A DNA stretch of 64,000 bases from Mesoterricola sediminis (GTDB taxonomy: Bacteria > Acidobacteriota > Holophagae > Holophagales > Holophagaceae), in NCBI RefSeq assembly GCF_030295425.1, contig NZ_AP027081.1:744001-808000 (forward strand), written 5' to 3'. Of this stretch, positions 7,898 to 46,796 are shown piece after piece. The notes beneath the pieces were generated by a model. It worked only from the letters and a program-made list of their open reading frames with translations, ran no database searches and was not told the DNA's origin. Within the stretch, counting starts at the first letter, position 1. The number at the start of each line of letters is the position of its first letter. Position numbers and translations under genes: made by a program.

Positions 7898-7900
7898 GCC

Positions 7901-26878: not shown

Positions 26879-27016
26879 AGGCGGTCTCCCTGGCTCCTCC
26901 GGCTCCGCGCGGGAACCACGTGGGGGTGCACAGCCGGGCGCCAGAGGGGTGAAATGATGATAGCCTGATGGCCCAACGCAGACCATTTCAGCCCCGATCC
27001 AGGAAACGGAAGGTTC

Positions 27017-29898: not shown

Positions 29899-30311
29899 GG
29901 GGCCTCGAAGGTCTTCAGGAGGGCGGTGGCGGCGGGCCGCCCCGCGTGGGAGAGGGTGCACTGGAAGGCCGAGAGGCCGATCTCGTCCAGGTATTCCAGC
30001 CGGGCCTCGATGAGGAGCTCGGCGCCGGCCGGGAAGGCGGGGACTTCGCAGGCGTAGCACTGGGTGCCCAGCAGGTAGCCCAGGCGGGGGGGGATCCCGT
30101 CGGCCTGTTTGCGGGCGCCGCTGTAGGCCGCCACCGCCTGGGCCATCAGCTCGATGCCAAACCACCCGGGCATGCTGCCGTCCGGGTCCGCGTACCAGGC
30201 CCCGGGGTCCACCCGGGCCAGGGCCCGGACCCCCTCGGCGTCCACGGACAGGACCTCGGCGAGGAGGAGCATGGGGGGACGGTGGGCCACCAGCTGGGCG
30301 GGATCGGTCAT
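29895..30311 (-). CDS. 3-hydroxyacyl-ACP dehydratase (ApeP/FabZ-like)
   Basis: A 138-residue hotdog-fold dehydratase. The catalytic His is in LVAHRPPMLLLAEV and the acid is in MPGWFGIELMAQAVAA, as in FabZ and the ApeP group. It would remove water from the ketoreductase product to give the conjugated double bonds of the polyene. It overlaps fabG by 4 bases and lies 3 bases from the lipoprotein gene. Confidence 0.9.
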   Translation of the reverse strand: MTDPAQLVAHRPPMLLLAEVLSVDAEGVRALARVDPGAWYADPDGSMPGWFGIELMAQAVAAYSGARKQADGIPPRLGYLLGTQCYACEVPAFPAGAELLIEARLEYLDEIGLSAFQCTLSHAGRPAATALLKTFEAP

Positions 30312-30314
30312 GGG

Positions 30315-30845
30315 TCAATCTTCCAACGTCGTGATTTCCGCTTCCACCCCGAAGGCGGGGAAGCGCAGGCGGACGCGGCGCCAGGGCGGGGCGGCGCCCT
30401 CGCGCGTCAGGACGAGGAGCGTCCGGCCCCCCCGGCGCAGGGTGCGGACCTGGTCCGCCTCCAGCAGCTCCGCCCCCTCCGGCAGGCCCTGGCGGGCCTC
30501 GTCCAGGGGCCAGTCGCTCAGCTCGATGAGGGTGGCGAGGAACCGGGGATCCAGCTCCGGCGGCAGGGGGACCCGGGCGTCCACCTGGGCGGGCCCGTCC
30601 GTCCAGGTGAGGATGAAGAGGGTCTGGCCCAGGACGGTGGAGGCCACCACCGAGGCCTTGCCGCCGGTGTTCTCCACCGTGGTGAGGAGACGTTCAGTCC
30701 GGCCACCGGGGAGCTTGAACAGCACCTCCTGGTTGGCGAAGACCGCCGGCCCCGTGCGGGCGGGGCGCAGGGCGTAGGGGAAGTCCAGGCGGGGCCGGCA
30801 CCCGGTCAGCAGGAGGGCCGCGAAGGCCAGGACCGCGGCCCTCAT
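30315..30845 (-). CDS. DUF3261 lipoprotein of the pigment cluster
   Basis: A 176-residue lipoprotein with signal MRAAVLAFAALLLTGC (lipobox Cys16). The body is beta-rich and resembles the DUF3261 proteins found in aryl polyene and xanthomonadin clusters. It is presumed to receive the product at the outer membrane with the LolA-like carrier. The start overlaps the MMPL gene end by 4 bases. Confidence 0.82.
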   Translation of the reverse strand: MRAAVLAFAALLLTGCRPRLDFPYALRPARTGPAVFANQEVLFKLPGGRTERLLTTVENTGGKASVVASTVLGQTLFILTWTDGPAQVDARVPLPPELDPRFLATLIELSDWPLDEARQGLPEGAELLEADQVRTLRRGGRTLLVLTREGAAPPWRRVRLRFPAFGVEAEITTLED

Positions 30846-33112
30846 GCCGTCTCCCGCTGGGCCAGGGCCAGGTGGCAGGTGAGGAGGGTGACGGTCACCG
30901 CCACCCCGAGGAGGACGCCGAAGCTCCGGAGGGCCGGCGTGTGGCTGAGGCCCAGGAGGCCGTAGGAGATGAGGGTGCTGGCCCCCGCCAGGGCGACGCC
31001 CAGCAGGGCCGATGGGCCCCCCGCCCGGAGGAACAGCGCGTAGTCCACCCCGAAGCCCAGGGCCAGGATGAGGGCCATGAGGGTGAAGAGGGACACGGGG
31101 AAGCCCAGGAGGGCCCCCGCCGCGAGGGCGGCCAGGATCCCCAGGACGGCGGGGAGGAGGAGGCGGAGCGCCCAGCGGGGGCCGTACCAGGCCCCCAGGG
31201 CGAGGCCCACGAGGAGGACGGCCCCGCCCAGGGCCCACGTGGCCAGGCGGCGGTAGTGGCCCATGAGGTCGCTGACGCTCTGGGCCTTGTCCACGAGGGC
31301 GACCCCCGGGAGGCCGGCGGCGGCCCGGCGCAGGGCCCCGGAGGTGGGGGTCCCGGTGGGCAGGACGATGCTGGCATGGCCGTGGCGGGTCTGCCCCAGC
31401 CAGAGCATGCGCACGGGCGCCGCGAAGGGCTGGGCCAGGAAGGTGGCGGGCTGGAGGACCGGGGTCTCCAGGCCGTCCAGGCCCCGGGCCACGGCGTCGG
31501 GCCGGAAGCCCACCTGGGCCATGGCCCGGGCGAGGGCCGGGCGGAGCTCCCGGTTCCGGGCGAGATGGGCCGCCTGGACGGCCGGGGAGGGCACGAAGGC
31601 GGAGACGGCCATGAGCCCCTCCACCCCCTCGATGGGCAGGCGGGCCCGGAGGGCCTCCTCCCGGGCCAGGACCTGGCCTTCGTCCGCGCCTTCCACCAGG
31701 AAGAAGGCCCCGGCGCTGGAGATCCGCATCAGCTCGGAAAGGCGGGCCTCGTCCCGGCGCAGGGCGGCGGAGGGCTGGATGAGGCCCCGGACCTGGTCGT
31801 CCGTGTGGCCCAGGCAGGCGACGGCTGCCAGGAGGGCGGCCAAGGCGAAGGCGCCGGGCAGGGCCCAGGGGCGGAGGGCCAGGGTCCGCACCCGGGCGTG
31901 GAGCCGCGCCAGGGGATCCAGGAGGCTGGGCCGGGGCGGCATGGGCGCCTCCAGCCAATCGGGCAGCGCCAGGAACACCGTGAGGAAGGCCCCGGCGAGG
32001 CCCACCATGGAGAACACGGCGATCTGCCGCAGGCCGGGGAAGGGGGCCGCGAGGAGGGCCCCGTAGCCGAGGATCGTCGTGGCGAAGCCGCCCAGGAGGG
32101 GGGGCCGGAGCCGGGCCAGGGCCTCCCGGGGCCGCCAGGCGTCCCCCGCGCCCAGATGGTGGGCGAAGTAGAGGAAGGCGTAGTCCACGGACACGCCCAG
32201 GACGCTCACGCCGCACACCAGGGTCAGGAGGTGCAGGCGTCCGAAGAGCAGGAGGCTGACGGCCAGGGCGGATACCAGGCCGGCCGTGGCGCAGGCGAGC
32301 CCCAGCGCCAGGTGGCGGACGGAGCGGAAGACCGCCACGTAGAGGGCGATGATGGCCAGGATGGACAGGGCGCTGATGAGGTTCATCTCACGCTCGGCCG
32401 TTTGGCGAGCGTCCGCGGCGTAGAAGGCGACGCCCGTGCGCAGGACCTCGGTGCCCGGGAAGGCGGCGCGGGTGGCCCCCAGGGCGGTCTCCACGGCGCC
32501 CAGGGCGCGGGTCTGGACCTGGGGATCGAACCCGGAGCCGGAGAGGCCCGCGGTCACGAGGATGTGGAGGCCGTCGGCGGCGCGGACGGTGAGCAGGTTG
32601 TCCCGGAGCTCCAGGCCGGTGGACTGGAAGGGGAGGCTCCCGAGGAAGCCGGCGAAGCCGCCCAGGGGGTCCAGCTCGGGGGGCAGGCCGGAGAACCGGG
32701 GCGACGCGAGCTGGGCCTCCAGGGCCGCGGCGGGGTCGGGGCCCGCCAGGGCGCCGGAGGCCAGGCGGAAGCGGTAGGGGGCGTAGAAGCGCACCAGGTC
32801 GCCGGGATCGATGGGGGGCAGGGTGGACTGCACGTCCCGGAAGGCGCCGGAGGCCTCGAGGCCCCGGGCCAGGTGCAGGGCCGCGGCCTTCCCGGCCTCG
32901 TCGCCGGGGCCCTTCACCAGGAGGATCACCCGCTCCTGGGTGGCCCGGGCCAGGGACTGGAGGGCCTGCTCGGCGACGGGGTTCTTCTCCGTCTCCGGCA
33001 GCATGGCCAGCAGATCCGTCTCCAGGGCCCGGCCGGAGGCCAGGCGCAGGCCCGCGAAGGTGGCCAGCGCGGCCAGGAGCGCGGCCCAGATCCAGCCGCG
33101 GGCGCGCATCAC
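30842..33112 (-). CDS. MMPL/RND-family exporter
   Basis: A 756-residue inner-membrane transporter with two repeats of one TM helix, a large periplasmic loop and a bundle of five TM helices. The first helix is WIWAALLAALATFAGLRLASG; the second bundle starts near residue 625 (WALGGAVLLVGLALGAWYG). GVSVDYAFLYFAHH and GFGVDYALFLRAG are the paired TM motifs with the proton-relay Asp. It likely extracts or exports the aryl polyene lipid. Confidence 0.9.
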   Translation of the reverse strand: MMRARGWIWAALLAALATFAGLRLASGRALETDLLAMLPETEKNPVAEQALQSLARATQERVILLVKGPGDEAGKAAALHLARGLEASGAFRDVQSTLPPIDPGDLVRFYAPYRFRLASGALAGPDPAAALEAQLASPRFSGLPPELDPLGGFAGFLGSLPFQSTGLELRDNLLTVRAADGLHILVTAGLSGSGFDPQVQTRALGAVETALGATRAAFPGTEVLRTGVAFYAADARQTAEREMNLISALSILAIIALYVAVFRSVRHLALGLACATAGLVSALAVSLLLFGRLHLLTLVCGVSVLGVSVDYAFLYFAHHLGAGDAWRPREALARLRPPLLGGFATTILGYGALLAAPFPGLRQIAVFSMVGLAGAFLTVFLALPDWLEAPMPPRPSLLDPLARLHARVRTLALRPWALPGAFALAALLAAVACLGHTDDQVRGLIQPSAALRRDEARLSELMRISSAGAFFLVEGADEGQVLAREEALRARLPIEGVEGLMAVSAFVPSPAVQAAHLARNRELRPALARAMAQVGFRPDAVARGLDGLETPVLQPATFLAQPFAAPVRMLWLGQTRHGHASIVLPTGTPTSGALRRAAAGLPGVALVDKAQSVSDLMGHYRRLATWALGGAVLLVGLALGAWYGPRWALRLLLPAVLGILAALAAGALLGFPVSLFTLMALILALGFGVDYALFLRAGGPSALLGVALAGASTLISYGLLGLSHTPALRSFGVLLGVAVTVTLLTCHLALAQRETA

Positions 33113-33708
33113 TCGAAGGCGAGGAGCCTGCGCTCCTCGGCGGTGAGGGGGGCGCCGGGGTTGAAGCGGAGGAACTGGATGTCGGTGGTGTCGCCCGAGG
33201 GCTCATCCACGTGGATGGTCTCCACGAAGGCGCCGCCCCGGATGCGCACGCCCTTGATGAAGGCGGCGGTCTGGGGCCGGGGCTCCAGCAGGATGGTCCA
33301 GGCCTCGGGGCCGCCCTGGCCCTTCACCGTGAAGAGCTCCTCCAGCCCGCTCCAGCGGCCCTCCAGGAGGGACTTCATGATGCCCGCCATGCGCGCCGCC
33401 ATGGCGTTGTCCTTGGCGGTCTGGAGCTTCCGGTTGCCCTGGGCGTCCACCTCCGCCACGCCCTTCGGCCCGAGGGCGACGGTGAGGCGCAGGGGCTTCT
33501 CCATGCGCCACAGCACGCCCAGTTCCCGGGAGACGACGAGGTTCCCCGAGGACTTGAGGGGGCGGGAGAGGGCCGCCAGGCGCCGGGTCTGCACGAAGTC
33601 GGCGTGGAGCAGGGGCGTGGCCTTCAGGTGGGCCGTGAGGGCCTCGGGCACCGGCTGGGCCTGGACGAGCAGGGCGAGGGGGGCGGCCAGGGCCGCGTGC
33701 GCCCTCAC
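33109..33708 (-). CDS. LolA-like outer-membrane lipoprotein carrier
   Basis: A 199-residue periplasmic LolA-fold protein: HADFVQTRRLAALSRPLKSSGNL and WRMEKPLRLTVAL match the start of LolA domains. The start is GTG at 33708, overlapping the thioesterase stop (GTGA); it gives a signal peptide (VRAHAALAAPLALLVQAQ). LolA-like proteins recur in aryl polyene clusters and may shuttle the lipid product across the periplasm. Confidence 0.85.
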   Translation of the reverse strand: MRAHAALAAPLALLVQAQPVPEALTAHLKATPLLHADFVQTRRLAALSRPLKSSGNLVVSRELGVLWRMEKPLRLTVALGPKGVAEVDAQGNRKLQTAKDNAMAARMAGIMKSLLEGRWSGLEELFTVKGQGGPEAWTILLEPRPQTAAFIKGVRIRGGAFVETIHVDEPSGDTTDIQFLRFNPGAPLTAEERRLLAFE

Positions 33709-34124
33709 CGGGCCACCCCGGCCAGCGCCTCGCGCAGCGCGTCGGGGCACCCGAAGCGCAGCTGCCCGGTGGCGGCCTCCACCGCCAGCTGGACGGTCTC
33801 GGCCTTGTGGAGGGTCTCGCCGGTCCCGGCATCGGTGATGCGGTAGTCGATGCGGATGCGGTCCTCGTACTCCAGGAGCCGGCAGGCCACGCGGAAGCGC
33901 TGGCCGTAGCGCAGGGGGCGGACGTACTTCATGGAGCAGGTGACCACGGGCCAGATGACGCCCCAGTCCTGCATCTGGGCCCAGTCCAGGCCCGCCTCGC
34001 GCATCATGGCCGTGCGGGCCAGCTCCAGGTACTTCACGTAGTGGCCGTGCCACACGAAGCCCATCATGTCGACGTCGTGGAACGGCGCCTCCAGTTCGAT
34101 CTCGCCTTGCAGGAAGGGTTTCAT
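33705..34124 (-). CDS. acyl-CoA/ACP thioesterase (4HBT family)
   Basis: A 139-residue hotdog thioesterase of the YbgC/4-hydroxybenzoyl-CoA type. The active-site signature is DVDMMGFVWHGHYVKYLELAR with the usual Asp. It may release the finished acyl chain or edit mis-loaded carriers. It overlaps both neighbours by 4 bases. Confidence 0.9.
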   Translation of the reverse strand: MKPFLQGEIELEAPFHDVDMMGFVWHGHYVKYLELARTAMMREAGLDWAQMQDWGVIWPVVTCSMKYVRPLRYGQRFRVACRLLEYEDRIRIDYRITDAGTGETLHKAETVQLAVEAATGQLRFGCPDALREALAGVAR

Positions 34125-35656
34125 GGGTAGAGGCTCCAGGTCTGTTCGCGGACGGCGTCGCAGAGGCCGGACAGGACCCCGTCCAGGGGACGGTCCTCGT
34201 CCAGGAAGGGCAGGTCCGAGCCGAGCCCCTCGAGGAAGCTCCGGGCCTCGGGGGCCAGCCGCTCCGCGGCCGCGATCCCCTGGCGCTCCCGGATGCGCAG
34301 GGCCTGCACGACGGCCAGGGCCAGGGAGGCCGCGACCTGCTCGGCCAGCTCCAGCACCCGCAGGGCGTCCCGGGCGGCGATGGTGCCCATGCTCACCTTG
34401 TCCTGGTTGTGGCACTCGGTGGAGCGGGAGAAGGCGGTGGCGGGCATCGTCAGCTTGAGGGCTTCGGCGGTCCAGGCGCTGGCCCCGATCTGCACGGCCT
34501 TGAGCCCGTGGTTGAGGGCGGCCCGGCGGCCCTCCGCCCCGGAGAGGTTCATGGGGAGGCCCTGGTTGTAGCGGACGTCCACCAGGAGGGCCAGCTGCCG
34601 GTCCATGAGGTCGGCCAGGCTGGCCACGGCGTTCTTCAGGCCGTCCATGGCGAAGGCCACGTGGCCGCCGTAGAAGTGGCCGCCGTGGAAGAGGAGGCCC
34701 GCCTCCGCGTCGATGAGCGGGTTGTCGTTGGCGCTGTTGAGTTCGGTCTCCAGGTCCCGGCGGATCCAGGCCAGGGCGTCGCCCAGCACCCCGATGACGT
34801 GGGGGGCGCAGCGCACGGAGTAGCGGTCCTGGAGCCGGGCCGGATCCTCCGTCCCCGGGGCGCCCCCCAGGTCCTCGTAGGCCCGCACCGCGGCCCGCAG
34901 GGTCCCGGGGTGGGGCTTCAGCTGGAAGAAGCGGGGGTGGAAGTGGTCCCGGTTGCCCCGCAGGGCCGCCACGGCCAGGGCGGTGAGGCGGGTGGCGAAG
35001 CGCTCCAGGTACCCGGCGCGGTGGGTGGCCAGGCATGCGAGCCCGGTCATGGCCGCCGTCCCGTTCATGAGGGCCAGGCCCTCCTTGGGGAAGAGGGTGA
35101 TGGGGGCGAGGCCGGCCTCCCGCAGGGCCTCGGCGGCGGGCAGGACACGGCCGTCGTAGAGGGCGTCCCGCTCCCCCACGAGGGTCGCGGCCACGTAGGA
35201 GAGGGGCGTGAGGTCGCCGCTGGCCCCCACGGAGCCTTCGGCGGGGATGCGGGGCAGGACGCCGCGGTTGAGGAGCGCCGCCAGGGCCGCGAGCAGCTCC
35301 CACCGCACGCCGGAGAAGCCCAGGGCCAGGGAGTTGAGGCGCGCCGCCAGCACCGCCCGCGTCTCGGCGGGGTCCAGGATCCGGCCCAGGCCGCAGCCGT
35401 GGTAGCGGGTGAGGTGGAGGGGCAGCTCCGGCACCAGGTCCGGCGCCACCTGCACCGTGCAGCTGTCCCCGTAGCCGGTGGTGACCCCGTAGACCTCGTG
35501 CCCCCGGGCGAGGAGTCCGGCCAGGAAGGCCGCGCCCCCCGCGATGCGGGCGGGGTCCGCCGCCAGGGTTACGCCCCGGCCCCGGGCCACCTCGGCCACG
35601 TCCTCGAGGGTCAGCGGGCCTGCGCCCAGGGCGATGGGGGGGAGGGATGCGTGCAT
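34121..35656 (-). CDS. aromatic amino acid ammonia-lyase (HAL/PAL/TAL family)
   Basis: A 511-residue MIO enzyme. The prosthetic group forms from A145-S146-G147 in GSVGASGDLTPLSY; the catalytic Tyr is in VYGVTTGYG. Length fits bacterial HAL/TAL. The substrate-selectivity pair aligns to Y85-H86 (LTRYHGCGLG), which is neither Ser-His (HAL), His-Leu (TAL) nor Phe-Leu (PAL). Neighbouring genes argue for cinnamate- or coumarate-type starter formation, as in flexirubin clusters, rather than histidine breakdown: no hut genes are present. Confidence 0.93.
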   Translation of the reverse strand: MHASLPPIALGAGPLTLEDVAEVARGRGVTLAADPARIAGGAAFLAGLLARGHEVYGVTTGYGDSCTVQVAPDLVPELPLHLTRYHGCGLGRILDPAETRAVLAARLNSLALGFSGVRWELLAALAALLNRGVLPRIPAEGSVGASGDLTPLSYVAATLVGERDALYDGRVLPAAEALREAGLAPITLFPKEGLALMNGTAAMTGLACLATHRAGYLERFATRLTALAVAALRGNRDHFHPRFFQLKPHPGTLRAAVRAYEDLGGAPGTEDPARLQDRYSVRCAPHVIGVLGDALAWIRRDLETELNSANDNPLIDAEAGLLFHGGHFYGGHVAFAMDGLKNAVASLADLMDRQLALLVDVRYNQGLPMNLSGAEGRRAALNHGLKAVQIGASAWTAEALKLTMPATAFSRSTECHNQDKVSMGTIAARDALRVLELAEQVAASLALAVVQALRIRERQGIAAAERLAPEARSFLEGLGSDLPFLDEDRPLDGVLSGLCDAVREQTWSLYP

Positions 35657-36298: not shown

Positions 36299-37603
36299 TT
36301 ACGGGGTGGGGCCGGTCGGCTCGAAGAGGGCGGCCAGGGCCTCGGCCCGCAGCTTCCCCCGGGCGTCCAGGGGCAGTTCCTCCACGAACCGCCACTTGCG
36401 GGGCAGGGCGGGGGCTTCGAGGGTCTGGGCCAGGCGCGCGCGCAGGTCCTCCCCCAGGGCGCGGCGGGCGGGGGCGTCCGGCGGGAGGGCCCCGCGGAGG
36501 ACGACGGCGGCCCCCAGCTGGCGGCGCCGGCCCTCCAGGAGCACCACCGCGGCCCCGGCGACGCCGGGGCAGGCCTTCAGGGCCGCCTCCACCTGGGGCA
36601 GGGAGACGCGCTTCTCCTCGATCTTCACGGTGCGGTCCAGGCGGCCCAGCAGCTCGAAGGTCCCGTCGGGATCCAGGCGGACGGCGTCCTCCATGCGCAG
36701 GCCGCCGGGGTCCACCCGGGAGGACCGCACGTGGAGCGCCCCGTCGGCCTCGACGCCGAGCTGCGTGTCCGGGAAGGGCGCCCACCGGGAGCTGGCGGGG
36801 TCGGGACCCGGGTTCCGCCAGGCGATGCCGCCGCTTTCGGTGCTGCCGTAGACCTCGAAGACGCCCGTCCGGGAAGCCCGCCGCCAGGTCAGGGCGTCCT
36901 CCCGCTCCAGCACGCCGCCCGAGGAGAAGACGGCCGGAAGGTCCAGGCCGTCGAGGGCCACCAGCTTGGGCAGGCGGGCGAGGTGGGCCGGACTGGCCAC
37001 CAGGATCGGGCGCAGGGCCATGGCCTCCCGGAAGCTGGCCGGGTCCCCGCAGGCGGCCGTCAGGAAGGGCCGGCCCGTGGCCAGGGGCCACAGGATCCGG
37101 AAGAGGCAGCCGTAGATGTGGTGGGGGGGCACGGTGGCGGCCACGGGGGCGTCGCCCGCCGCTTCGCCGAAGAGGGCGGCGAGGAGCTCCGCCTCCCGGG
37201 CGAGCTGGTGGAAGCGCCGGAGCACCGCCTTGGGGGTGCCGGTGGACCCGGAGGTCCAGAACTCCACGTCCGTGTCGGGCAGGGGGCCGGAGGCCGGGGC
37301 CGCCCCCTCCCGGAGGCAGCGGGCGTCGTCCAGCACCGCGTCGGCGCCCACGCAGGCCAGGGTGGCGGGCAGGAGATTGGGGGGGATGATCACCCGGGCG
37401 CCGCCGAGGACGGCGCCCAGGAGGCCGGCGGCGAAGGCATAGGCGTCCTCGCAGGCGAGGACGACCCGCTCGCCGGTCCGCACCTGGTCCCGCACCCCGG
37501 CCACCGCCCGCCGGAAGGCGCCGGTGGGGCGGGGCCCGTCCGGGGCCAGGGCCGCGGGGGAATCGCTCGGGCGTCCGACGTCCAGCAGGGACCGACCCAC
37601 CAT
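36299..37603 (-). CDS. AMP-dependent acyl-CoA/ACP ligase
   Basis: A 434-residue ANL-superfamily adenylating enzyme. Motifs are FWTSGSTGTPKAV (P-loop), VYGSTESGG, GRLDRTVKIEEKRV (hinge) and the C-terminal DARGKL lysine. It is shorter than standard ligases (about 500), like the XanA2/aryl polyene group. Its likely job is to activate the ammonia-lyase product and load it on an adjacent ACP. It overlaps the upstream ACP by one base. Confidence 0.9.
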   Translation of the reverse strand: MVGRSLLDVGRPSDSPAALAPDGPRPTGAFRRAVAGVRDQVRTGERVVLACEDAYAFAAGLLGAVLGGARVIIPPNLLPATLACVGADAVLDDARCLREGAAPASGPLPDTDVEFWTSGSTGTPKAVLRRFHQLAREAELLAALFGEAAGDAPVAATVPPHHIYGCLFRILWPLATGRPFLTAACGDPASFREAMALRPILVASPAHLARLPKLVALDGLDLPAVFSSGGVLEREDALTWRRASRTGVFEVYGSTESGGIAWRNPGPDPASSRWAPFPDTQLGVEADGALHVRSSRVDPGGLRMEDAVRLDPDGTFELLGRLDRTVKIEEKRVSLPQVEAALKACPGVAGAAVVLLEGRRRQLGAAVVLRGALPPDAPARRALGEDLRARLAQTLEAPALPRKWRFVEELPLDARGKLRAEALAALFEPTGPTP

Positions 37604-37881
37604 CAGGCGCTCATCATGGCCTGGACGCAGTCGACCACGTCCTGGACCGTGTACATCAGGCGGAACTCGTCCGGCTGGAGGCGCCGGCCGGTGTATTCCT
37701 GCATGTGCTGGGCCAGCTCGACTTCGTCGATGCTGTCCAGGCCCAGGTCCGTGAACAGATTGGCCTCGGGGGTCACGGTGCGGGGGTCCAGGCGGAACTG
37801 CTGGTGCAGGGTCTGGCGGACCCAGCGGAGGATGTCCTCCGGGGTCCGGACGGGGGTGGACGCGTTGCCTGGATTCAACAT
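37603..37881 (-). CDS. acyl carrier protein
   Basis: A 92-residue ACP, Ser in LGLDSIDEVELA. The start at 37881 (MLNPGNAS) is chosen since an AGG lies at a plausible distance; 37920 is an in-frame alternative. It begins 86 bases after the hydrolase-radical SAM gene and directly abuts the ligase. Confidence 0.92.
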   Translation of the reverse strand: MLNPGNASTPVRTPEDILRWVRQTLHQQFRLDPRTVTPEANLFTDLGLDSIDEVELAQHMQEYTGRRLQPDEFRLMYTVQDVVDCVQAMMSA

Positions 37882-37967: not shown

Positions 37968-39674
37968 TCAAAGCCGGGGGCAGCCGCGGCAGGCGGCGGG
38001 CGGCGCTCCGGCCAGGAGGCCCTGGCGAAGCGCCCGCAGGGCGGGTCCGTTCCACACCTGCTGGAAGGCGGGGTGGAGGAGGCTCCCCGCCGGGTTCCCG
38101 GGCTGGCAATCGCAGCAGGTGAGGGTGCCGTCGGCACCCACGGCCGCGGTCTGCCAGGGCGAGAGGCAGTGCCGGTGGCGGTCCGCCCGGTCCCAGAGCC
38201 GTTCGGCGGGGCGCAGGAGGTACTCCCGCAGGCGGAAGGGCTTCCCCAGTTCCTCCAGGCCCCGCACCGAGAGCGCGGGAAGGCCGGCCGCCAGGGCCCG
38301 TTCCAGGGAACGGGCAACCGTCTCCCGGACCCCGGCGGGGGCGGCCCGGAGGCTGCGGGCCCGGTTCGCCGCGAAATTGAGGTCGGAGAGCATCCAGGCC
38401 CGGGCCCCCAGCCCCAGGGCCAGGTCGGCCACGCCGTCCAGGTGCTCGGCGTTTTCCGTGGAGACGGCGGTGAACACCGCCAGGGCCACCCGGCCCCGCC
38501 AGCGTTCGGCCGCCTCCCGGAAGGCGCCCAGGGTGCGCTGGAAGGGGACGCCCGGGCGGAGGCGCTCCGCCAGGGCCGGATCGGCCGCGTCCACGGAGAA
38601 CGTGGCCTGGGCCAGGCCCGCGTCCGCCAGGGCCTCGGCGAGGGGGGCGGTGAGGGCCGCGCCGCTGGTGACGAGGCCCACCCAGCGCCCCTGGCGGGCG
38701 GCCATCGCCACGCAGGCGGCCAGGTCCGGGTGGAGGGTCGGTTCCCCCAGGCCCACCAGGGTGATGCGGGCGGCCTCGGGCAGCCGGTCCAGGACCTGGG
38801 CGAAGGTGGCCAGGGTCATGTCCCCGCGGTCCGGCCGATCCTGGGTGCGGGCGCAGGCCACGCAGCGGTGGGGGCACCGGGTGGTGAGTTCGACGTTGAC
38901 GAGGGCCGGGGGCGGGGCCCAGGGACCGAGTTCCGGCAGGGCGCCGGGCTGGAGGGCCCGCCGGACGGAGGGGGTCCGGCCCGCGGCATGCCAGCCGCCG
39001 GGGCGGGCCTCGGCGTAGGCCGCCACGCCCGGTTCCAGGAGGGCGATCCGCGCCCGCTCCGCCGCGGTCAGGGCGTCCCCGGGCAGGAGGGCGTCCACGA
39101 TGGCGGCGACGAGGGCGTCCCAGGCCGCGGGCGAGGTGAGGTGATGGCCCTCGCCCGGCAGGATCAGGACCTCCCGGCCCCAGGAGGCCAGGTCCTCCGG
39201 CGGCACCAGTTCGTCCGCCCCGCCGTGGGCCAGGACCAGCGGGACCTGGGGCAGGCCGGCGGCGCCGGCCCGGTTGAGGGTGTGGACCAGGCGGCAGGCA
39301 TCCAGGAGCGTGGGGGGGTCCATCCGGCCGTGGGTCGCGGCCAGGAAGCGGGGCAGGTGTTCCAGGCCCACCCGGGGCGGGACGCCCAGCAGGACGAGCA
39401 GGTCCGGCCGGAGCTGGGCCTGGGCCAGCAGGGCCAGGGAACCCCCCGTGGAGTGGCCCACCAGGGCCCAGGGGCCCGGTCCCTCCGCCGCCGCGGCCAC
39501 CGCGGCGAGGAAGGCCGCCTCGTCGAAGGGCGGGGGGCTGCCCGTGCCCGTCCAGGCGGGGTGGAGGGCCGCGAACCGGGCGCAGCCCGCCCCGAAGACC
39601 CCTTCCAGGGCCTCGGCCAGGGGGGCGAGGTCCGCCGGGGCGCCCAGGTAGCCGTGGACGAGCACGAAGCGCAT
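37968..39674 (-). CDS. alpha/beta-hydrolase fused to radical SAM/SPASM domain
   Basis: A 568-residue two-domain protein. Residues 1-200 are an alpha/beta hydrolase with oxyanion HGYLG, nucleophile S75 in GHSTGG, acid in GGADELVPP and His in GEGHHL. From about 255 a radical SAM domain starts with C267, C271 and C274 (TTRCPHRCVACA), and the C-terminus has a SPASM-like cysteine set (CCDCQPGNP, CRGCP) with the VWNGPALRALRQ element. No stop or frameshift separates the parts. The combination is unusual; the substrate is unknown. Its start overlaps the glycosyltransferase stop by one base. Confidence 0.9.
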   Translation of the reverse strand: MRFVLVHGYLGAPADLAPLAEALEGVFGAGCARFAALHPAWTGTGSPPPFDEAAFLAAVAAAAEGPGPWALVGHSTGGSLALLAQAQLRPDLLVLLGVPPRVGLEHLPRFLAATHGRMDPPTLLDACRLVHTLNRAGAAGLPQVPLVLAHGGADELVPPEDLASWGREVLILPGEGHHLTSPAAWDALVAAIVDALLPGDALTAAERARIALLEPGVAAYAEARPGGWHAAGRTPSVRRALQPGALPELGPWAPPPALVNVELTTRCPHRCVACARTQDRPDRGDMTLATFAQVLDRLPEAARITLVGLGEPTLHPDLAACVAMAARQGRWVGLVTSGAALTAPLAEALADAGLAQATFSVDAADPALAERLRPGVPFQRTLGAFREAAERWRGRVALAVFTAVSTENAEHLDGVADLALGLGARAWMLSDLNFAANRARSLRAAPAGVRETVARSLERALAAGLPALSVRGLEELGKPFRLREYLLRPAERLWDRADRHRHCLSPWQTAAVGADGTLTCCDCQPGNPAGSLLHPAFQQVWNGPALRALRQGLLAGAPPAACRGCPRL

Positions 39675-40852
39675 CAGGCCCCCAGCCGTTCGGCTACTCG
39701 GTCCGCGGCGCGGGCGAGGGGGACGGGGAGGGGCAGGGGGCCCCGGCGGGGCAGGCCCATCAGGCGCGCGTCCAGCTCCGCGTCCCCCAGGGCCGCCAGG
39801 GCGTCGGCGTAGACCCGGCTGGACCCCCAGAACACCGTGGGGGGGACCAGGCGCGCGCCGGCCCCCAGGCGCTCCAGGCAGAGGCCGTTCTGGGCCTGCT
39901 CGGGATGGAAGGGAAAGACGGCGGTGGGCACGCCCGCGGCGAGGGCCTCGAAGACGGTCTGCTGGCCCCCGTGGCACACCAGGAGGTCCGCGCGGGCCAG
40001 GAGGTCCCCCATGGGCGCGAAGCCGAAGGCCGTGACCCCGGGCCTCGGCGCGCGCCCGGAGGGGAATCCGCCGCCCGCCAGGGCCACCTGGAAGCCCAGG
40101 GCCAGGAGCCGGTCCAGGATGCGCCCCGGCGCCGCGTCCGGGCCGATGGCCGTGCCCAGGGAAAGCACAGCCAAGGGGCTGCCCAGGCGATCCAGGGCCG
40201 GCCCGGCGGCCTCCGTCCCGGGCCACCGGTCCCAGGCCAGGGGGCCCACGTGCTCCAGGCCGGGGGCCGGCGCCAGGGGCTGGAAGTCCGGGGTGTCCCA
40301 CAGGTAGGTTCGGCGGCCGAGCAGCAACGACCGCACGTCCTCCACGGCGGGCCGCCCCAGGGCCGCCAGCGCCCGGGAGGCCCGGGCCCCGCAGTGGCTG
40401 TAGAAGGTGTCCAGGAAGGGGCGCTGGGCCTCGTGCCCGGGTTCCCCGGGGGCGAAGCCCAGGACGCCGCGGAAGGCGGGGAGCATGCAGCCGCAGGCCA
40501 GGGTGTCGCAGGGGATCCCGGCCAGGGCCGCCGAGGTGGGGGCCGTGAAACGGAAGATGCCCAGGACGAGGTCGGGCTTCACCTCGGCCAGGAGGGCGGT
40601 CTCGGCCTGGACGACCCGCAGGAACCGGTCGGGGTGGCGGAACCAGGCGAAGGTGGGGGCGGAGCCGCCGTCCGCCTCCTGGAGGTCCGGCAGCACCCGG
40701 TGGGGCACGTCCAGCCGCGTGAGGAAGGGCGAGCGGGCCGCCGATGCCGCGAAGACCACCTCCGCGCCACGCGCCCGCAGGGCCTCGCGCACGGCGAGCC
40801 CCTTGGCCAGGTGGGAGAGGGCGTTGCTCCCCGGCAGGATCAGGACCCGCAC
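39674..40852 (-). CDS. MGT-type glycosyltransferase (GT1-like)
   Basis: A 392-residue GT-B glycosyltransferase. The donor-binding motif CHGGQQTVFEALAAGVP lies near residue 310, and the N-terminus SNALSHLAKGLAVREALRARG is typical of the MGT/UGT group. The start is GTG at 40852, overlapping the acyltransferase by 13 bases; RVLILPGSN follows at once. It may glycosylate the aryl head group. The sugar is not predictable. Confidence 0.87.
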   Translation of the reverse strand: MRVLILPGSNALSHLAKGLAVREALRARGAEVVFAASAARSPFLTRLDVPHRVLPDLQEADGGSAPTFAWFRHPDRFLRVVQAETALLAEVKPDLVLGIFRFTAPTSAALAGIPCDTLACGCMLPAFRGVLGFAPGEPGHEAQRPFLDTFYSHCGARASRALAALGRPAVEDVRSLLLGRRTYLWDTPDFQPLAPAPGLEHVGPLAWDRWPGTEAAGPALDRLGSPLAVLSLGTAIGPDAAPGRILDRLLALGFQVALAGGGFPSGRAPRPGVTAFGFAPMGDLLARADLLVCHGGQQTVFEALAAGVPTAVFPFHPEQAQNGLCLERLGAGARLVPPTVFWGSSRVYADALAALGDAELDARLMGLPRRGPLPLPVPLARAADRVAERLGA

Positions 40853-41736
40853 GTCCCGTCCTCCGCCCAGAGGTCGAAGAAGTTGAACCAGTGATGGGGG
40901 TGCGCGGCCAGGAAGGCCTCCAGCATGCCGGCGAAGGCTGCGGCGTGGGGCGCGTAGGGGGCGGCGCCCCGGCCCAGGCCCGGCGGCACCCGGATCACGC
41001 CCGCCAGGCTCATTTCGAACTGATCGGGGCAGGGCTTGACGGGGAGGAGCACCGCGATGGGCGCGCCCGTCGCGGAGGCCAGCCGGTAGGCGGCGGAGGG
41101 CAGGCGGACCGTGCCCCCCAGGAAGGGCGCGGCCACGGCCGTGCGGGTGTCCCCCCAGGTGCGGTCCCCCATCAGGCAGAGCACGCCGCCCTGCTGGAGC
41201 ACCCCGACCATGGCCGGCACGCCCCCGAGGAAGCCGTCGGGGTCGATGCGCGTGAAGGGGTGGGCCCCTTCCCGGAAGGGCGAACTGCGGTCCCCGGGCT
41301 CGAGGCGGGCCACCGTCGCGAGGGGCTGGGACAGGGCGCCCAGGTTGGCCATGCCGAGCTGCCACGCGCCCACGTGGGCGGTGAGGATGATGAGGCCCCG
41401 GCCCTCCCCCAGCAGCGCCTGGAGCGGCTCCCGGCACTGGAGGGTGGTGCCCAGGGTGGGATCCCCCAGGCGGAGGGCCGTCTGGTCCACCAGGAGGCGG
41501 GCGAAGGTCTGGACCAGCCGGAGGGTGTCGCCCAGGAGGCGACGGCGGCCCGGGAACCGGTGCCGGAGGTAGGGGCGGCAGCGGGCTCGCACGGAGGGAC
41601 GGGCCAGTACGTACCAGAGGGCCACCAGGTCCGCGAGGCGGTAGGCGACGGGCCGGCCCGCGCGTCGGATGCAGGCCCGGAAGAACCCGAACTGCCAGCC
41701 GGCACCCAGGCCCCGCTCCCGCCAGCCGGCGCTCAT
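40840..41736 (-). CDS. LpxL-like lipid acyltransferase
   Basis: A 298-residue member of the LpxL/HtrB lysophospholipid acyltransferase group. Family segments are LTAHVGAWQLGMANL (position of the HxxxxD/E-like motif) and CLMGDRTWGD. In aryl polyene clusters such acyltransferases attach fatty acyl chains so that the pigment becomes a membrane lipid. It overlaps both neighbours. Confidence 0.85.
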   Translation of the reverse strand: MSAGWRERGLGAGWQFGFFRACIRRAGRPVAYRLADLVALWYVLARPSVRARCRPYLRHRFPGRRRLLGDTLRLVQTFARLLVDQTALRLGDPTLGTTLQCREPLQALLGEGRGLIILTAHVGAWQLGMANLGALSQPLATVARLEPGDRSSPFREGAHPFTRIDPDGFLGGVPAMVGVLQQGGVLCLMGDRTWGDTRTAVAAPFLGGTVRLPSAAYRLASATGAPIAVLLPVKPCPDQFEMSLAGVIRVPPGLGRGAAPYAPHAAAFAGMLEAFLAAHPHHWFNFFDLWAEDGTCGS

Positions 41737-43190
41737 GGCGTTCCTCCGGCCTTCCGTTCCGTGCGGCGGGTGAAGGCCAGGAACGCGCCCAGGCTGCCCA
41801 GGAAGCGCAGCCAGCTGTGGGGGGAGCGCCAGAGCATGGCCACGTAGCCCAGAAGCACCTTGGGGCGCCGGAAGTGGCCCTCGTAGAAGGCCCGGAACAG
41901 CTCCTCCAGGCGCGCCTTCGTCATGCCGCGGGGGACGAACTGGATGCTCATGCAGTCCATCTTCTCCCAGTCCTCCTCGAAGGTGCCCAGCTCGTGGGCC
42001 TTCTCGTAGATGGGCGACCCCGGGAAGGGGGTGAACTTGGCCAGGTTGAAGTCGTCGATGGGCAGCGCGTAGACGTAGTCCATGCTCTTGCGGACGCTCG
42101 CTTCCGACTCCCCGGGCAGGCCCAGCATCAGGAGGCCCTTGGTTCGGATGCCCGCCTTCTTGATCATGCGGATCTTGCCGGCCAGGTGATCCAGGTCGGG
42201 GTTCTGGCGGTGCTGGGCCAGGAGCTCCGGATCGCCGGTCTCGATCCCCAGGCTCATCATCCAGCACCCGGCCCGCTTGAGGCGCGCCACCAGGTCCGCG
42301 TCGATGTGCTCGGCCCGCACGGTGCAGTTGAAGGTCATGCCCAGGGGCCGCTCCAGGAGCAGGTCCGTGAGGCGCTCCACCCGGCGGCGGTCGAGGGTGA
42401 ACTGGTCGTCGTAGAAGTTGAGGTGGCGGATGCCGAAATCCCGGCGCAGGTGGCGCATGTGGTCGTACAGGTACGCCGCCGAATTGAAGCGGAAGCTGCG
42501 CCGGAACACGGAGCGGTCGCAGTACGAGCAGGCGTAGGGGCATCCGCGGCTGGTGATGCAGCTGCTGTTGGGCGCGGTGGGGTAGTTGAAGATGGGGAGC
42601 CGGTAGGCCCCGGGGAAGCCCTCCAGCCTGGCGTAGGCGGGGAAGGGGAGGTCGTCCAGCACGAGGGCTTCGCGGCGGTAGCCGTTGAACCGGCCCGGGC
42701 CGTCCGCGCCGTCCCGCCAGGCCAGGCCCTCCACGGACGCGGGGGCCTCCCACCCGCCCGACACGAGCTCGAGGAGCGTCGCCTCCCCCTCCCCCACCAC
42801 GATGAAGTCCACCGCCGGGTAGTCCTCCAGCAGGCGCGCCTTCAGGGCGGAGACGTGGGACCCCCCGAACACCGTGCGGATGCCGGGCAGGGCCGCCTTG
42901 GCCAGGGCGGCGATGCGCACGCCGTCCAGGAAACTGGACGTGGTGCAGCTCAGGCCGATGAAGGCCGGGCGCTCCGTGCGCAGCCGTTCGAGGATGGCCG
43001 CGTCGGAGAAGGGGTGGGCGAAGCAGTCGATGATGGAGGCCGAGAACCCGTGCCGCTCCAGGTAGGCCGCGAGCATGGCGAGGCCCAGGGGCGGCATGAG
43101 GTTGGCGACCCGGGAGATGTCGGCCCCGGCCTCTTCGGCGCGGTAGCCCAGGGGGTGGACGAGAAGGATCCTGGACGCGTCGAGCTTCAT
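41733..43190 (-). CDS. radical SAM protein with B12-binding-like N-terminus
   Basis: A 485-residue radical SAM enzyme of the B12-binding-domain type. The N-terminal 150 residues form a Rossmann-like domain (LMPPLGLAMLAAYLERHG; GGSHVSAL; VVGEGEATLLEL), without a clear DxHxxG cobalamin motif. The radical SAM cluster ligands are C217, C221 and C224 (SRGCPYACSYC). The closest architectures include BchE-like and methyltransferase/ring-forming enzymes. It overlaps both neighbours by 4 bases. Reaction unknown. Confidence 0.9.
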   Translation of the reverse strand: MKLDASRILLVHPLGYRAEEAGADISRVANLMPPLGLAMLAAYLERHGFSASIIDCFAHPFSDAAILERLRTERPAFIGLSCTTSSFLDGVRIAALAKAALPGIRTVFGGSHVSALKARLLEDYPAVDFIVVGEGEATLLELVSGGWEAPASVEGLAWRDGADGPGRFNGYRREALVLDDLPFPAYARLEGFPGAYRLPIFNYPTAPNSSCITSRGCPYACSYCDRSVFRRSFRFNSAAYLYDHMRHLRRDFGIRHLNFYDDQFTLDRRRVERLTDLLLERPLGMTFNCTVRAEHIDADLVARLKRAGCWMMSLGIETGDPELLAQHRQNPDLDHLAGKIRMIKKAGIRTKGLLMLGLPGESEASVRKSMDYVYALPIDDFNLAKFTPFPGSPIYEKAHELGTFEEDWEKMDCMSIQFVPRGMTKARLEELFRAFYEGHFRRPKVLLGYVAMLWRSPHSWLRFLGSLGAFLAFTRRTERKAGGTP

Positions 43191-44521
43191 GCGGGCACCG
43201 GAAAGCGCACCAGGGTATCCCAGAGCAGGCCCTTGAAGCCCAGGGCGCGCAGGGCCTCCAGCCGCTCGCGGCCCCGGGAGGGGGGGAACACGCGGTCCCG
43301 CCGGCCCTTGAAGACGCCCGCGATCCGGGCCTCCATGGCCTGCCGGTCCAGGCCCGGGGCGAAGTAGTGCAGGGGCTCCAGCAGGGGGGCCCCGGGCGTG
43401 GCGAGGCCCTGCCGCTGCGCCAGGCCCAGCAGGGGCGTGCCGGGGAGGATGCGGATGCCGGAGAAGGCGAAGACCACCGTGTGGCGCAGGCGCTCCAGGT
43501 TGGCCAGCCCCTCCTCCACCGTGGCCGCCGTCTCCCCGGGCCCGCCGAACATGACGAAGTGGGCGCAGGGCACCCGGGCCTCCACGAAGGCCTCGTTGGC
43601 CTCCACCACCTCCGCGAAGGTGAAGCCCTTGCCGAGCCCCCGCAGGGTGGCGTCGCAGGCCGCGTCCGTGCCCAGCTCCGCCGCCCGGAGCCCGGCGCGC
43701 TTGAGCAGGCGCAGGTCCTCGGCGCGCAGGCCCTGGGGGCGCATGTAGCAGCTCCAGGTCACGTCCAGGCCCCGGCGCAGGATCTCCTCCGCCAGCTCCC
43801 GGTAGCCGGGGTCGCCGTTGAAGAGCGCGTCGGCCAGGAAGAAGGCCTCCGCGCCCAGGTCCCGGCGCGCCCGGGCCAGGTCGTCGGCCACGGCCCCGGG
43901 CTCGCGGCGGCGGATGCGGGTCCCCTCCAGGTCGGCGTAGTTGCAGTAGACGCAGCTCTGATCGCAGCCCCGCTGGGTCTGGACGTTGAGGAGCCCGGAG
44001 CGCTCCAGGTAGAAGCGCGCGATGGCGGGATCGTAGGCGGGCGCCCCCAGGACCTCCGGCACGGCTCCCCGCTGGATGGGGGGCACGGGCCGCCCCGCGG
44101 CGAGGGCTTCCACCACCAGCGGGCCGGTGACCTCCCCCTCGCCCACGACGCCGCAGTCCGCGCCCGTGTAGGCCAGCAGCTCGGCGGGAAGGATGGAGAA
44201 GGCGGGGCCGCCCAGGACGATGGGCGCCCGGGTGTGGGCCCGGGCCACGGCCACCAGGTGGCGGGCCGTGGACGGATAGTCGGTGGTGGCCAGGGAATCG
44301 CAGGAATCCAGGTTGCGGAGCGAGAAGCCCAGGACCTCGGGCTGGAAGGCGGCGATCCGCGCCGCGAAGGCCTCCTCCGGCCGCGCCTCGGCGAGGACAT
44401 CGAACTGGGCCACCTCGTGGCCCCGGGCCGCCAGGGCCCCGGCGAGGATCGCCATGCCCAGCGGGTGAACCGGGTACGGATCACAGGTGACGTTGGTGGA
44501 AACGAGCAGGACGCGGCTCAT
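43187..44521 (-). CDS. radical SAM protein with B12-binding-like N-terminus
   Basis: A 444-residue second radical SAM enzyme of the same class. The N-terminal domain has VHPLGMAILAGALAARGH, IVLGGPAFS and VVGEGEVTGPLV; no DxHxxG is seen. The 4Fe-4S ligands are C186, C190 and C193 (QRGCDQSCVYC). It is the first gene of the 16-gene minus-strand operon and is divergent from the deacetylase-methyltransferase gene across 72 bases. It overlaps the next radical SAM gene by 4 bases, so the two probably act together. Confidence 0.9.
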   Translation of the reverse strand: MSRVLLVSTNVTCDPYPVHPLGMAILAGALAARGHEVAQFDVLAEARPEEAFAARIAAFQPEVLGFSLRNLDSCDSLATTDYPSTARHLVAVARAHTRAPIVLGGPAFSILPAELLAYTGADCGVVGEGEVTGPLVVEALAAGRPVPPIQRGAVPEVLGAPAYDPAIARFYLERSGLLNVQTQRGCDQSCVYCNYADLEGTRIRRREPGAVADDLARARRDLGAEAFFLADALFNGDPGYRELAEEILRRGLDVTWSCYMRPQGLRAEDLRLLKRAGLRAAELGTDAACDATLRGLGKGFTFAEVVEANEAFVEARVPCAHFVMFGGPGETAATVEEGLANLERLRHTVVFAFSGIRILPGTPLLGLAQRQGLATPGAPLLEPLHYFAPGLDRQAMEARIAGVFKGRRDRVFPPSRGRERLEALRALGFKGLLWDTLVRFPVPA

Positions 44522-44593: not shown

Positions 44594-46042
44594 ATGCGAT
44601 TCCCCCTGTCCGCGGCCCACCTGACCGGTCTGGCCGCCTTCCAGCTGGCGCTCGGCCTCTTGTTCGTTGATCCGCGCCTGGCGGCGATCCCGCTGGCCGC
44701 CTTCGTCCTCCTCACGCTCCTCGCGCCCCTCTTTCCCGCCTTCCCGTACTTCCTGCCCATCGTCACCCACGGCGACCGGCGGCGGCCCCGGGTGGCCCTC
44801 AGCTTCGACGACGGGCCCGATCCCGAGGTGACCCCCCGCGTTCTCGACCTGCTGGACGAGGCCGGCGTCAAGGCGGTGTTCTTCATGGTGGCCCGGAAGG
44901 CCGAGGCCCACCCGGACCTGGTGCGCGAGGTGCTGGCCCGGGGGCACGCCGTGGGCAACCACAGCCTGCGCCACGACACCCTCCTCATGCTCAAGGGGCC
45001 CCGGGCCCTGCGGGCGGACATCGTCGAATCCCAGGCCGTCTTCCGGCGCCTGGGGGTCGTGCCCCGGGCCTTCCGGCCCCCCGTCGGCATCACGAACCCC
45101 GACCTCTGGAACGTGCTCCTGGACGAGGGTCTCTTCTGCATGAACTTCAGCTGCCGGGCCGGTGACCTGGGCAACCGCCGCGTCCAGGGCCTTGCCGCCC
45201 GCATCCTGGGCCGGGTGCGCCCCGGGGACCTCCTCCTCCTCCACGACGGCCGGCCCCCGCGCCTGGACGTCGACCAGCTGCTGGGCGAGCTGAGGGCGCT
45301 CCTGCAGGGGCTGCGGGCCCGGAACCTGGAGCTCGTGCCTCCCGGCGTCCTGGTCGGGCGGGAGCTCATGGCCCGCGCCGAAGGGGCCGGCATCGCCGAG
45401 CGCTTCTACGACGATCTGGCCGAGGGCTACGACGCCGAGCAGTTCGAGAGTCCCGTCGCCCGGTCCCGCACCCTGGAGCAGCGCCTCTTCCGGGCCCACT
45501 GGCCCCGCCTCTCCCTGGGCGCGGGCCGGGTGCTGGAGGTGGGCGCGGGCACGGGCATCTTCACCCTGGAGATCGCCGCGGCCTGCCGGGAAGTGCACGC
45601 CCTGGACCTGTCGGAGCGCATGCTCGAGCAGCTTCGCCGCAAGGCGGAGCGGGCCGGCCTGTCCAACATCGTGACCCGCCAGGGCGACGCGGAGCGCCTG
45701 CCCCTGGAGGGCCCCTATTCCGTCCTGTGCGCCTTCCTCGCCTTCGAGTATTTCCACGACCTGCCCGGCTTCCTCAAGCGGGTGGGCCCCCACATGGAGC
45801 CGGGGGCGCGCCTGTACTTCTGCACGGCCAGGCGCTCCTTCTTCCGGTTCTGGACCCAGGTGGGCAACGCCATGCGCCAGGGCATCTGGCTGCGGGCCCG
45901 GAGCCGCCGGGAGGTGGAGGCCATGCTGCGCGAGGCGGGCATCGAGGTGGTGCGGATCGAAGGGCACCTGCTCAAGGTGGCGGGCCTGGGCGGCATGCTG
46001 CTGGAGGTGGAGGGCCGCTGGCCGGAGACGCCCCGTGCCTGA
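44594..46042 (+). CDS. polysaccharide deacetylase-methyltransferase fusion
   Basis: A 482-residue fusion. Two hydrophobic segments (residues 8-57) anchor a NodB-like deacetylase domain: D72-D73 in SFDDGPDP, H123 and H127 in GNHSLRH, RPPVGI, and LLLLHDG. From about 268 a class I SAM methyltransferase follows (ERFYDDLAEGYD; motif I VLEVGAGTG at 313-321; ALDLSERML). No obvious Shine-Dalgarno precedes the ATG. It overlaps the GT2 gene by 8 bases. It probably tailors a sugar or aryl group of the cluster product. Confidence 0.9.
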   Translation: MRFPLSAAHLTGLAAFQLALGLLFVDPRLAAIPLAAFVLLTLLAPLFPAFPYFLPIVTHGDRRRPRVALSFDDGPDPEVTPRVLDLLDEAGVKAVFFMVARKAEAHPDLVREVLARGHAVGNHSLRHDTLLMLKGPRALRADIVESQAVFRRLGVVPRAFRPPVGITNPDLWNVLLDEGLFCMNFSCRAGDLGNRRVQGLAARILGRVRPGDLLLLHDGRPPRLDVDQLLGELRALLQGLRARNLELVPPGVLVGRELMARAEGAGIAERFYDDLAEGYDAEQFESPVARSRTLEQRLFRAHWPRLSLGAGRVLEVGAGTGIFTLEIAAACREVHALDLSERMLEQLRRKAERAGLSNIVTRQGDAERLPLEGPYSVLCAFLAFEYFHDLPGFLKRVGPHMEPGARLYFCTARRSFFRFWTQVGNAMRQGIWLRARSRREVEAMLREAGIEVVRIEGHLLKVAGLGGMLLEVEGRWPETPRA

Positions 46043-46796
46043 GGCGCCCCGGGTCCTGGCCGTCGTGCCCGTGTACAACCATGCGGCCACCCTGCCGGGT
46101 GTCGTCCAGGGCCTCCTGGCGCAGGACCTGGACGTGCTCGTCGTGGACGACGGCAGCACCGACGATCCCCTGGCGTCCCTCGGGGGGCTGCCCCTGCGTT
46201 CGCTCCGCCTCGACCCCAACCAGGGCAAGGGCGCCGCGCTCCTGGCCGCCGCCCGGTGGGCCCAGGCGGAGGGCTACGACCTCCTCCTGACCCTGGACGC
46301 GGACGGCCAGCACCTCCCCGCCGATGCGCCCCGCCTCCTCGCCGAAGCCCGGGCCCACTGGCCGGCCCTCGTGGTGGGGAACCGGGCCATGGAGGACGAG
46401 CACGTGCCCTGGTCCAGCCGGTTCGGGCGGGCCTTCTCCAATGGGTGGGTGCGCCTGGAGTGCGGCCGGCGCCTGGGGGACACCCAGAGCGGGTTCCGGG
46501 CCTATCCCGTCGCGTTCCTCGTCCGCACGCCCTTCCTGACCCGCCGCTACACCTTCGAGGTGGAGGTGCTCGTGAAGGCGGCCTGGGCGGGCCTTCCCAT
46601 CCGGGACGTCCCCGTGCGGGTGATCTACCCGCCGGCCGGCGAGCGGATCTCCCATTTCCGGGCCTTCCGGGACAACGCCCGGCTCACCGCCCTCCACACC
46701 TGGCTGGTGACGTGCCGTCTGTGGGCGCTGGCGACGGGCCGGTCCTACTTGGGCAGGAGGGCCACGACCTCGGCGAAGGAGAAGGACTCGGCGTAG
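46035..46796 (+). CDS. family 2 glycosyltransferase
   Basis: A 253-residue GT-A glycosyltransferase resembling dolichol-phosphate-mannose synthase-like enzymes: VVPVYNHAATLP, VVDDGSTDD, the metal motif in LTLDADGQHLP, and GDTQSGFRAYP. The start is GTG at 46035, overlapping the upstream gene. The last 17 codons overlap the ankyrin gene on the other strand. Similar GT2 enzymes occur in aryl polyene clusters. Confidence 0.88.
   Translation: MPEAPRVLAVVPVYNHAATLPGVVQGLLAQDLDVLVVDDGSTDDPLASLGGLPLRSLRLDPNQGKGAALLAAARWAQAEGYDLLLTLDADGQHLPADAPRLLAEARAHWPALVVGNRAMEDEHVPWSSRFGRAFSNGWVRLECGRRLGDTQSGFRAYPVAFLVRTPFLTRRYTFEVEVLVKAAWAGLPIRDVPVRVIYPPAGERISHFRAFRDNARLTALHTWLVTCRLWALATGRSYLGRRATTSAKEKDSA

Follow-up and report, generated by a model that had tools for sequence, protein, structure and literature searches.

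Organization of the locus

Within the window, i.e. the whole stretch of 64,000 nucleotides of Mesoterricola sediminis DNA that we analysed, the gene g38 codes for a single protein that joins an alpha/beta-hydrolase to a radical SAM/twitch moiety. It is part of the g23-g47 gene run, whose enzymes include ApeP-like and ApeI-like dehydratases, ketosynthases (KS), KR, acyl carrier proteins (ACPs), an AMP-ligase, an aromatic ammonia-lyase and a 4HBT thioesterase. LolA-like, MMPL and DUF3261 proteins, acyltransferases, a family 2 glycosyltransferase and a NodB-type deacetylase-methyltransferase are also encoded in this interval. The main features are the following:

25649..29177: g23-g26, with g23, a ketosynthase, on the minus strand, followed on the plus strand by an ACP, a ketosynthase and a partial ketosynthase/CLF-like protein
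29158..34124, minus strand: g27-g32, KR, ApeP-like dehydratase, DUF3261 protein, MMPL exporter, LolA-like protein and 4HBT thioesterase (aryl-polyene core and export genes)
34121..35656, minus strand: g33, aromatic amino acid ammonia-lyase with an ASG (MIO) motif (PF00221, 7e-154)
36299..37603, minus strand: g36, AMP-ligase (4-coumarate ligase-like)
37603..37881, minus strand: g37, acyl carrier protein (PF00550)
37968..39674, minus strand: g38, fused alpha/beta-hydrolase and radical SAM/twitch protein of 568 residues (ORF, translation, Pfam matches and nine further fused orthologues)
39674..40852, minus strand: g39, UGT/YjiC-type glycosyltransferase, directly upstream of g38, with a stop codon that overlaps the g38 start (TGATG)
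40840..41736, minus strand: g40, lipid A-type acyltransferase (PF03279)
41733..43190, minus strand: g41, B12-binding radical SAM protein, BchE/HpnJ-like, under all family cut-offs
43187..44521, minus strand: g42, B12-binding radical SAM protein, TIGR04072 (rSAM_ladder_B12; 563 bits for a cut-off of 360)
44594..46042, plus strand: g43, NodB-type deacetylase fused to a SAM methyltransferase
46035..46796, plus strand: g44, family 2 glycosyltransferase

Reading frame of g38

The g38 gene starts with an ATG at 39674 and ends with a stop codon at 37968-37970, on the minus strand. The initial annotation had described this uninterrupted frame of 568 codons without giving its strand, and the frame is present. 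The G+C content around g38 is 74-78%, and antisense frames are likewise open in this context, including a plus-strand ORF of 579 residues at 38073-39812, so that the open frame alone is weak proof of a gene. It is homology that lifts g38 above chance, with Pfam matches to Radical_SAM and SPASM and to hydrolase models in its orthologues. We consider it virtually certain that the fused protein is real. The initial annotation had raised the concern that homologues might always be separate genes, or that a sequencing error had joined two genes here; instead, the fusion is found in 10/10 loci, and in none of the loci inspected did the two halves appear as adjacent, independent genes. The probability of a sequencing or assembly artefact is negligible: the window genome is complete, in one contig, and the nine other loci, which come from independent assemblies, carry the same type of fusion, ruling out an erroneous junction.

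Domain composition and catalytic residues

The protein can be divided as follows:

39075..39674, minus strand: alpha/beta-hydrolase domain, residues ~1-200, with invariant S75, D154 and H177 and hydrolase fold neighbours
38913..39074, minus strand: helical linker, residues ~201-254, delineated from the secondary structure of the models and partly conserved
38355..38912, minus strand: radical SAM core, residues ~255-440, with PF04055 at 261-418 and an invariant CxxxCxxC motif (C267/C271/C274)
37971..38192, minus strand: C-terminal twitch-like domain, residues ~495-568, with PF13186 at 503-566 and the NF033640 twitch model at 502-565

The Radical_SAM signature (PF04055) was detected in g38 at 2e-19, with 70.6 bits for a cut-off of 29.5, which places the protein in this superfamily, and the SPASM signature (PF13186) was found at 1e-6, also over its cut-off. 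Both are present in 5/5 aligned members of the fusion family, as is the serine-hydrolase model Hydrolase_4. Abhydrolase_6 reaches 1e-9 in orthologues; the hydrolase matches of the window protein alone are weak, under the Pfam cut-offs. Membership of the alpha/beta-hydrolase fold is evidenced by the invariance of the S75/D154/H177 triad and by the hydrolase folds found among the model matches. In the nine intact fusions, this triad and eight Cys residues (267, 271, 274, 503, 521, 523, 562 and 565) are strictly conserved. The proposal of a genuine two-domain enzyme with both predicted active sites intact is thus borne out, and the earlier numbering of S75 (in GHSTGG), C267, C271 and C274 is correct.

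The C-terminal region had been called SPASM-like, a description that holds in part, as the Cys residues are there and PF13186 matches over its cut-off, but their arrangement is a twitch pattern rather than the full SPASM motif. The latter comprises seven Cys residues, CX9-15GX4C-gap-CX2CX5CX3C-gap-C, and goes with two auxiliary clusters (PMC6231123). The twitch domain is a truncated SPASM domain with one auxiliary cluster and the first four Cys residues of the motif (PMC6231123, PMC9012708). In g38, the C-terminal domain holds five Cys residues, arranged as C503-X12-G516-X4-C521-D-C523 ... C562-X2-C565, and the protein ends three residues after C565. Only the CX12GX4C and CX2C elements of the seven-Cys motif were found, and the Cys count rules out a full SPASM domain. 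The twitch pattern is invariant in the nine intact copies, and a beta-hairpin precedes the last Cys residues in a model of the L021 orthologue. Because the Cys residues form C-X12-G-X4-C ... C-X2-C and the protein then ends, we infer that this domain is of the twitch type and would bind one auxiliary cluster.

Distribution of the fused proteins

Fused loci were found in three phyla, in members of the Acidobacteriota, in Desulfobacterota-type genomes and in one gammaproteobacterial genome. There are ten, nine of them intact: the window, G004, G021/L022, L021/G331, L023/G332, G399, G560, G550, G526 and G1227. L022 and G021, each of 53,094 bases, represent a single contig and were counted once. 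G004, whose locus was read by tblastn, belongs to the same genus as the window genome, with 64% identity between the fusions, and G021/L022 is a metagenome-assembled genome (MAG) of the same family, Holophagaceae. L021/G331 and L023/G332 are a Desulfobacterales and a gammaproteobacterial MAG, respectively. G399, G560, G550 and G526 belong to the same class as G331, and G1227 to the same phylum, the taxonomy of the G genomes resting on kinship labels.

Fusions were identified in 3/60 relatives of the window genome, in 5/291 genomes of the class of G331 (full-length matches and G526), in 2/247 genomes of its phylum and in 1/250 genomes of the order of G332. A draw of 297 genomes from the phylum of the window genome yielded none besides that of this genome itself. 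This rare and patchy occurrence suggests horizontal transfer. In a tree of the radical SAM proteins that included 16 unfused relatives, the fused proteins form one clade (support 91/98), which long branches among the unfused sequences make indicative rather than final. Trees built one by one for the hydrolase half, the radical SAM half and g39 all pair the window with G004 and L021 with G399.

Unfused radical SAM relatives in G466, G614, G592 and G480 sit among glycan-type genes, and no hydrolase gene was recognised by eye beside them. Stand-alone relatives in L059, L060 and L061 are found in apparent glycan clusters, next to asparagine-synthase-like genes. The viral contigs searched yielded only one distant radical SAM protein.

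The partner glycosyltransferase

The g39 gene adjoins the fusion gene in all ten loci; the two overlap by 1-8 bases in most of them and are 2 bases apart in G550. Among the 291 genomes of the class of G331, g39 is present in four, and all four harbour the fusion. It is also present in 4 of the 60 relatives, three of which have the fusion; in the fourth, G005, g39 is cut by the end of the contig and its neighbour lies beyond view. Together, g38 and g39 form a two-gene cassette, located mostly within clusters for type II polyene/aryl-polyene lipids.

G526 (L058:4041-6075) harbours a decayed version of this cassette. Its glycosyltransferase consists of two ends only, the middle being lost. In its fusion, the triad is intact, as are the first three Cys residues, and the gene is frameshifted further on, possibly through an assembly fault. 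Both members of the pair thus appear to have decayed.

The surrounding biosynthetic gene cluster

The dehydratase, KS, KR, AMP-ligase and ACP genes occur together with the MMPL, LolA and DUF3261 export genes, a combination that defines an aryl-polyene (APE) cluster, and the context is rich in ACPs. The presence of g42, which scores over the TIGR04072 cut-off, makes the cluster of the ladderane type as well, which does not imply the production of ladderanes. From its gene content, the cluster is predicted to make an outer-membrane aryl-polyene (glyco)lipid. TIGR04072 proteins over the cut-off occur in 8/10 fusion genomes, the other two being G332 and G526. In the gammaproteobacterial MAG L023, the pair is found in an APE-type cluster devoid of B12-radical SAM genes. 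In G1227, few cluster genes surround the pair in the stretch examined; flanks are partial for G550, G1227 and L023.

Clusters without the pair are informative. ApeP was identified in 18/60 relatives, vs the fusion in 3/60. In G001, of the same genus, nearly the whole gene run is kept and g38, g39 and g41 are missing; at the site of the pair, g40 runs directly into TGATGTATACT, a sequence located after g38 in G004. As this cluster is otherwise syntenic and cleanly lacks the pair, we conclude that g38-g39 is an optional tailoring unit added to the polyene-lipid pathway. A dependence of the pair on g41 was ruled out, since g41 occurs in G003, where the fusion and g39 are both missing, and the pair occurs in L023, where g41 is missing.

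A few other features of these loci were observed. The ladderane-type gene g42 shares an APE-type cluster with an aromatic ammonia-lyase gene. The g43 gene is one frame of 482 residues, kept in G004, G001 and G021 at 59-65% identity. At 27415-29177, a ketosynthase gene precedes one for a partial, CLF-like ketosynthase that lacks the C-terminal Pfam domain; the counterparts of the two appear as a single double ketosynthase of 709-711 residues in G399 and G560. G560 (L056) has two more radical SAM genes in tandem (365 and 332 residues) within its lipid cluster. At the other end of the window (25-8185), g1-g9 by eye resemble genes for subunits of a heterodisulfide-reductase and a [NiFe]-hydrogenase, accompanied by maturation genes.

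Relatives of the two halves

Comparison of the radical SAM core with profiles of solved structures gave BlsE (5e-14), PqqE (3e-13), the archaeal GDGT synthase 7tol (3e-11) and BtrN (4e-11), with further matches to AbmM and MoaA and, lower, to DesII (4e-4). BlsE, BtrN and DesII are established to act on sugars, nucleosides or cyclitols, and AbmM acts on a sugar-type substrate. Two AlphaFold models, of the window and L021 proteins, were built from four-sequence alignments, with pLDDT values of 63 and 69 and pTM values of 0.46 and 0.49, at which the arrangement of the domains relative to each other, and with it the placement of one active site towards the other, is not usable. The first Foldseek match was BlsE for the former model and DesII for the latter, followed by SkfB, SuiB, PqqE and BtrN. 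Fold neighbours of the hydrolase half include FphH, TesA, LipS/T, a mycobacterial monoacylglycerol lipase, carboxylesterases and the Vlm2 thioesterase domain.

The best NCBIfam match is TIGR04311 (putative metalloenzyme maturase), with 88 of the 400 bits required for membership, and scores for the PqqE family (64.5 of 381 bits) and the BlsE family TIGR04466 (38 of 400 bits) are likewise under their cut-offs, which rules out g38 as a member of any of the three. Moreover, sequence similarity among Twitch/SPASM proteins is a poor predictor of function (PMC6231123).

Proposed function of the pair

We propose g38 as a probable, so far uncharacterised enzyme of polyene-lipid tailoring. Because several of the nearest solved relatives handle sugars, nucleosides or cyclitols and the invariant partner is a glycosyltransferase, we favour a sugar substrate, and together with the polyene-lipid context these features lead us to a tentative model, to which we give somewhat less than an even chance, in which the pair tailors a polyene glycolipid. 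Characterised aryl-polyene lipids have an amino-sugar phosphoglycerol headgroup. In the model, g39 would glycosylate the lipid or the headgroup, and the radical SAM/twitch half would take a hydrogen from the added sugar, which would thereby be oxidised, decarboxylated or rearranged in reactions like those of BtrN, BlsE and DesII with their small sugar-type substrates. An electron might be taken up or relayed by the auxiliary cluster, and the hydrolase half would act on an ester (acyl group) of this molecule, cleaving or moving it. Against this reading, the peptide enzymes PqqE, SuiB and SkfB score close to BlsE, TIGR04311 is the best NCBIfam match, few cluster genes surround the pair in G1227, and the models are of low to medium confidence. 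The broader proposition, that one enzyme couples the ester chemistry of a serine hydrolase to radical SAM chemistry on the sugar of a polyene glycolipid, and that the transferable cassette it forms with its glycosyltransferase gives rise to an unseen class of aryl-polyene glycolipids, is a speculative one that we hold to be rather unlikely in its entirety.

The initial annotation had favoured chemistry on a carrier-bound intermediate. In this cluster, the hydrolase half would then be a thioesterase or acyltransferase acting on an ACP-bound polyene, and the radical half would modify the same chain before its release. The several ACPs of the cluster, weak Thioesterase (PF00975) matches in 2/5 members and the presence of the type II thioesterase TesA and the Vlm2 domain among the fold neighbours are in line with this mechanism. 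However, monoacylglycerol lipases and carboxylesterases figure among these neighbours too, and a distinct 4HBT thioesterase (g32, ApeK-like) is already encoded in the cluster. The invariant partner is a glycosyltransferase and not an ACP, and some of the solved proteins closest to the radical SAM half work on small sugar-type molecules. We therefore regard this mechanism as unlikely, yet deserving attention.

The pair might instead modify the aryl head, with g39 glycosylating a phenolic hydroxyl and g38 altering the ring or the sugar attached to it. Phenols are common acceptors of UGT-type enzymes, the window encodes both the ammonia-lyase g33 and a coumarate-ligase-like enzyme, and L023 and G550 also have ammonia-lyase homologues close to the pair. 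None was detected in the examined regions, some of them partial, of L021, G399, G560 and G021, where another aromatic starter might be used, and we hold this possibility to be improbable. Slightly more doubtful still is a role of the radical SAM half as a peptide or protein maturase similar to PqqE, SkfB or TIGR04311 proteins: TIGR04311, TIGR04317 and PqqE are the best NCBIfam matches and SuiB, SkfB and PqqE are among the first fold matches, but all family scores are far under the cut-offs, a hydrolase rather than a peptide-recognition element precedes the core, and the gene context is one of lipid and sugar genes. Finally, coupling or cyclization of lipid tails through ladderane-like or tetraether-like carbon-carbon bonds, as hinted at by the TIGR04072 neighbour and the weak match to 7tol, is very improbable, since that match spans only the general radical SAM core and the L023 pair belongs to an APE-type cluster without a ladderane-type radical SAM gene.

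If the glycolipid-tailoring model is correct, a membrane lipid would be subject to a new kind of radical chemistry, carried out by a radical SAM-hydrolase fusion encoded in a polyene-lipid cluster. In titles and abstracts of the open-licence literature, we recognised no description of a hydrolase-radical SAM fusion or of radical SAM genes in APE clusters. Since some genomes carry the pair and a close relative lacks it, a comparison already provided by nature could show what the cassette contributes, and through its ladderane-type radical SAM neighbour the cassette is tied to clusters with no assigned product.

Comparison with known systems

Among solved structures, the cytosylglucuronate decarboxylase BlsE (PDB 7vob/7voc) is the best profile match of the g38 core; unlike g38, it has no hydrolase domain. 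The twitch-domain dehydrogenase BtrN has the same C-X12-G-X4-C ... C-X2-C layout with one auxiliary cluster, whereas g38 is much larger, fused to a hydrolase and endowed with the additional invariant C523. The sugar-nucleotide deaminase DesII, for which we know of no hydrolase domain, superposes weakly on the L021 model (TM 0.40, rmsd 8.8). The SPASM-twitch maturases PqqE, TIGR04311 and SkfB have core scores similar to those of the other matches of g38; they act on peptides or proteins, and g38 lacks the seven-Cys SPASM motif.

At the cluster level, the FASII clusters called 'ladderane-type' in Kuenenia and Desulfotalea resemble the window in combining FASII and radical SAM genes, with g42 belonging to TIGR04072 (PMC2649909); the ammonia-lyase and APE-type export genes are features of the window, and we know of no fused hydrolase-radical SAM protein described for those clusters. 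Outside the anammox bacteria, numerous phyla carry ladderane-type clusters as well, the product of which is unknown (PMC9902471). The APE cluster of E. coli CFT073 has in common with the window KS, KR, ApeP/ApeI dehydratases, ACPs, AMP-ligase and 4HBT genes, as well as genes for LolA-like, MMPL and DUF3261 proteins, an acyltransferase and a glycosyltransferase (PMC8253772). The E. coli apeA-R list includes no radical SAM gene (PMC8253772), whereas the window has three, plus the extra glycosyltransferase gene g39.
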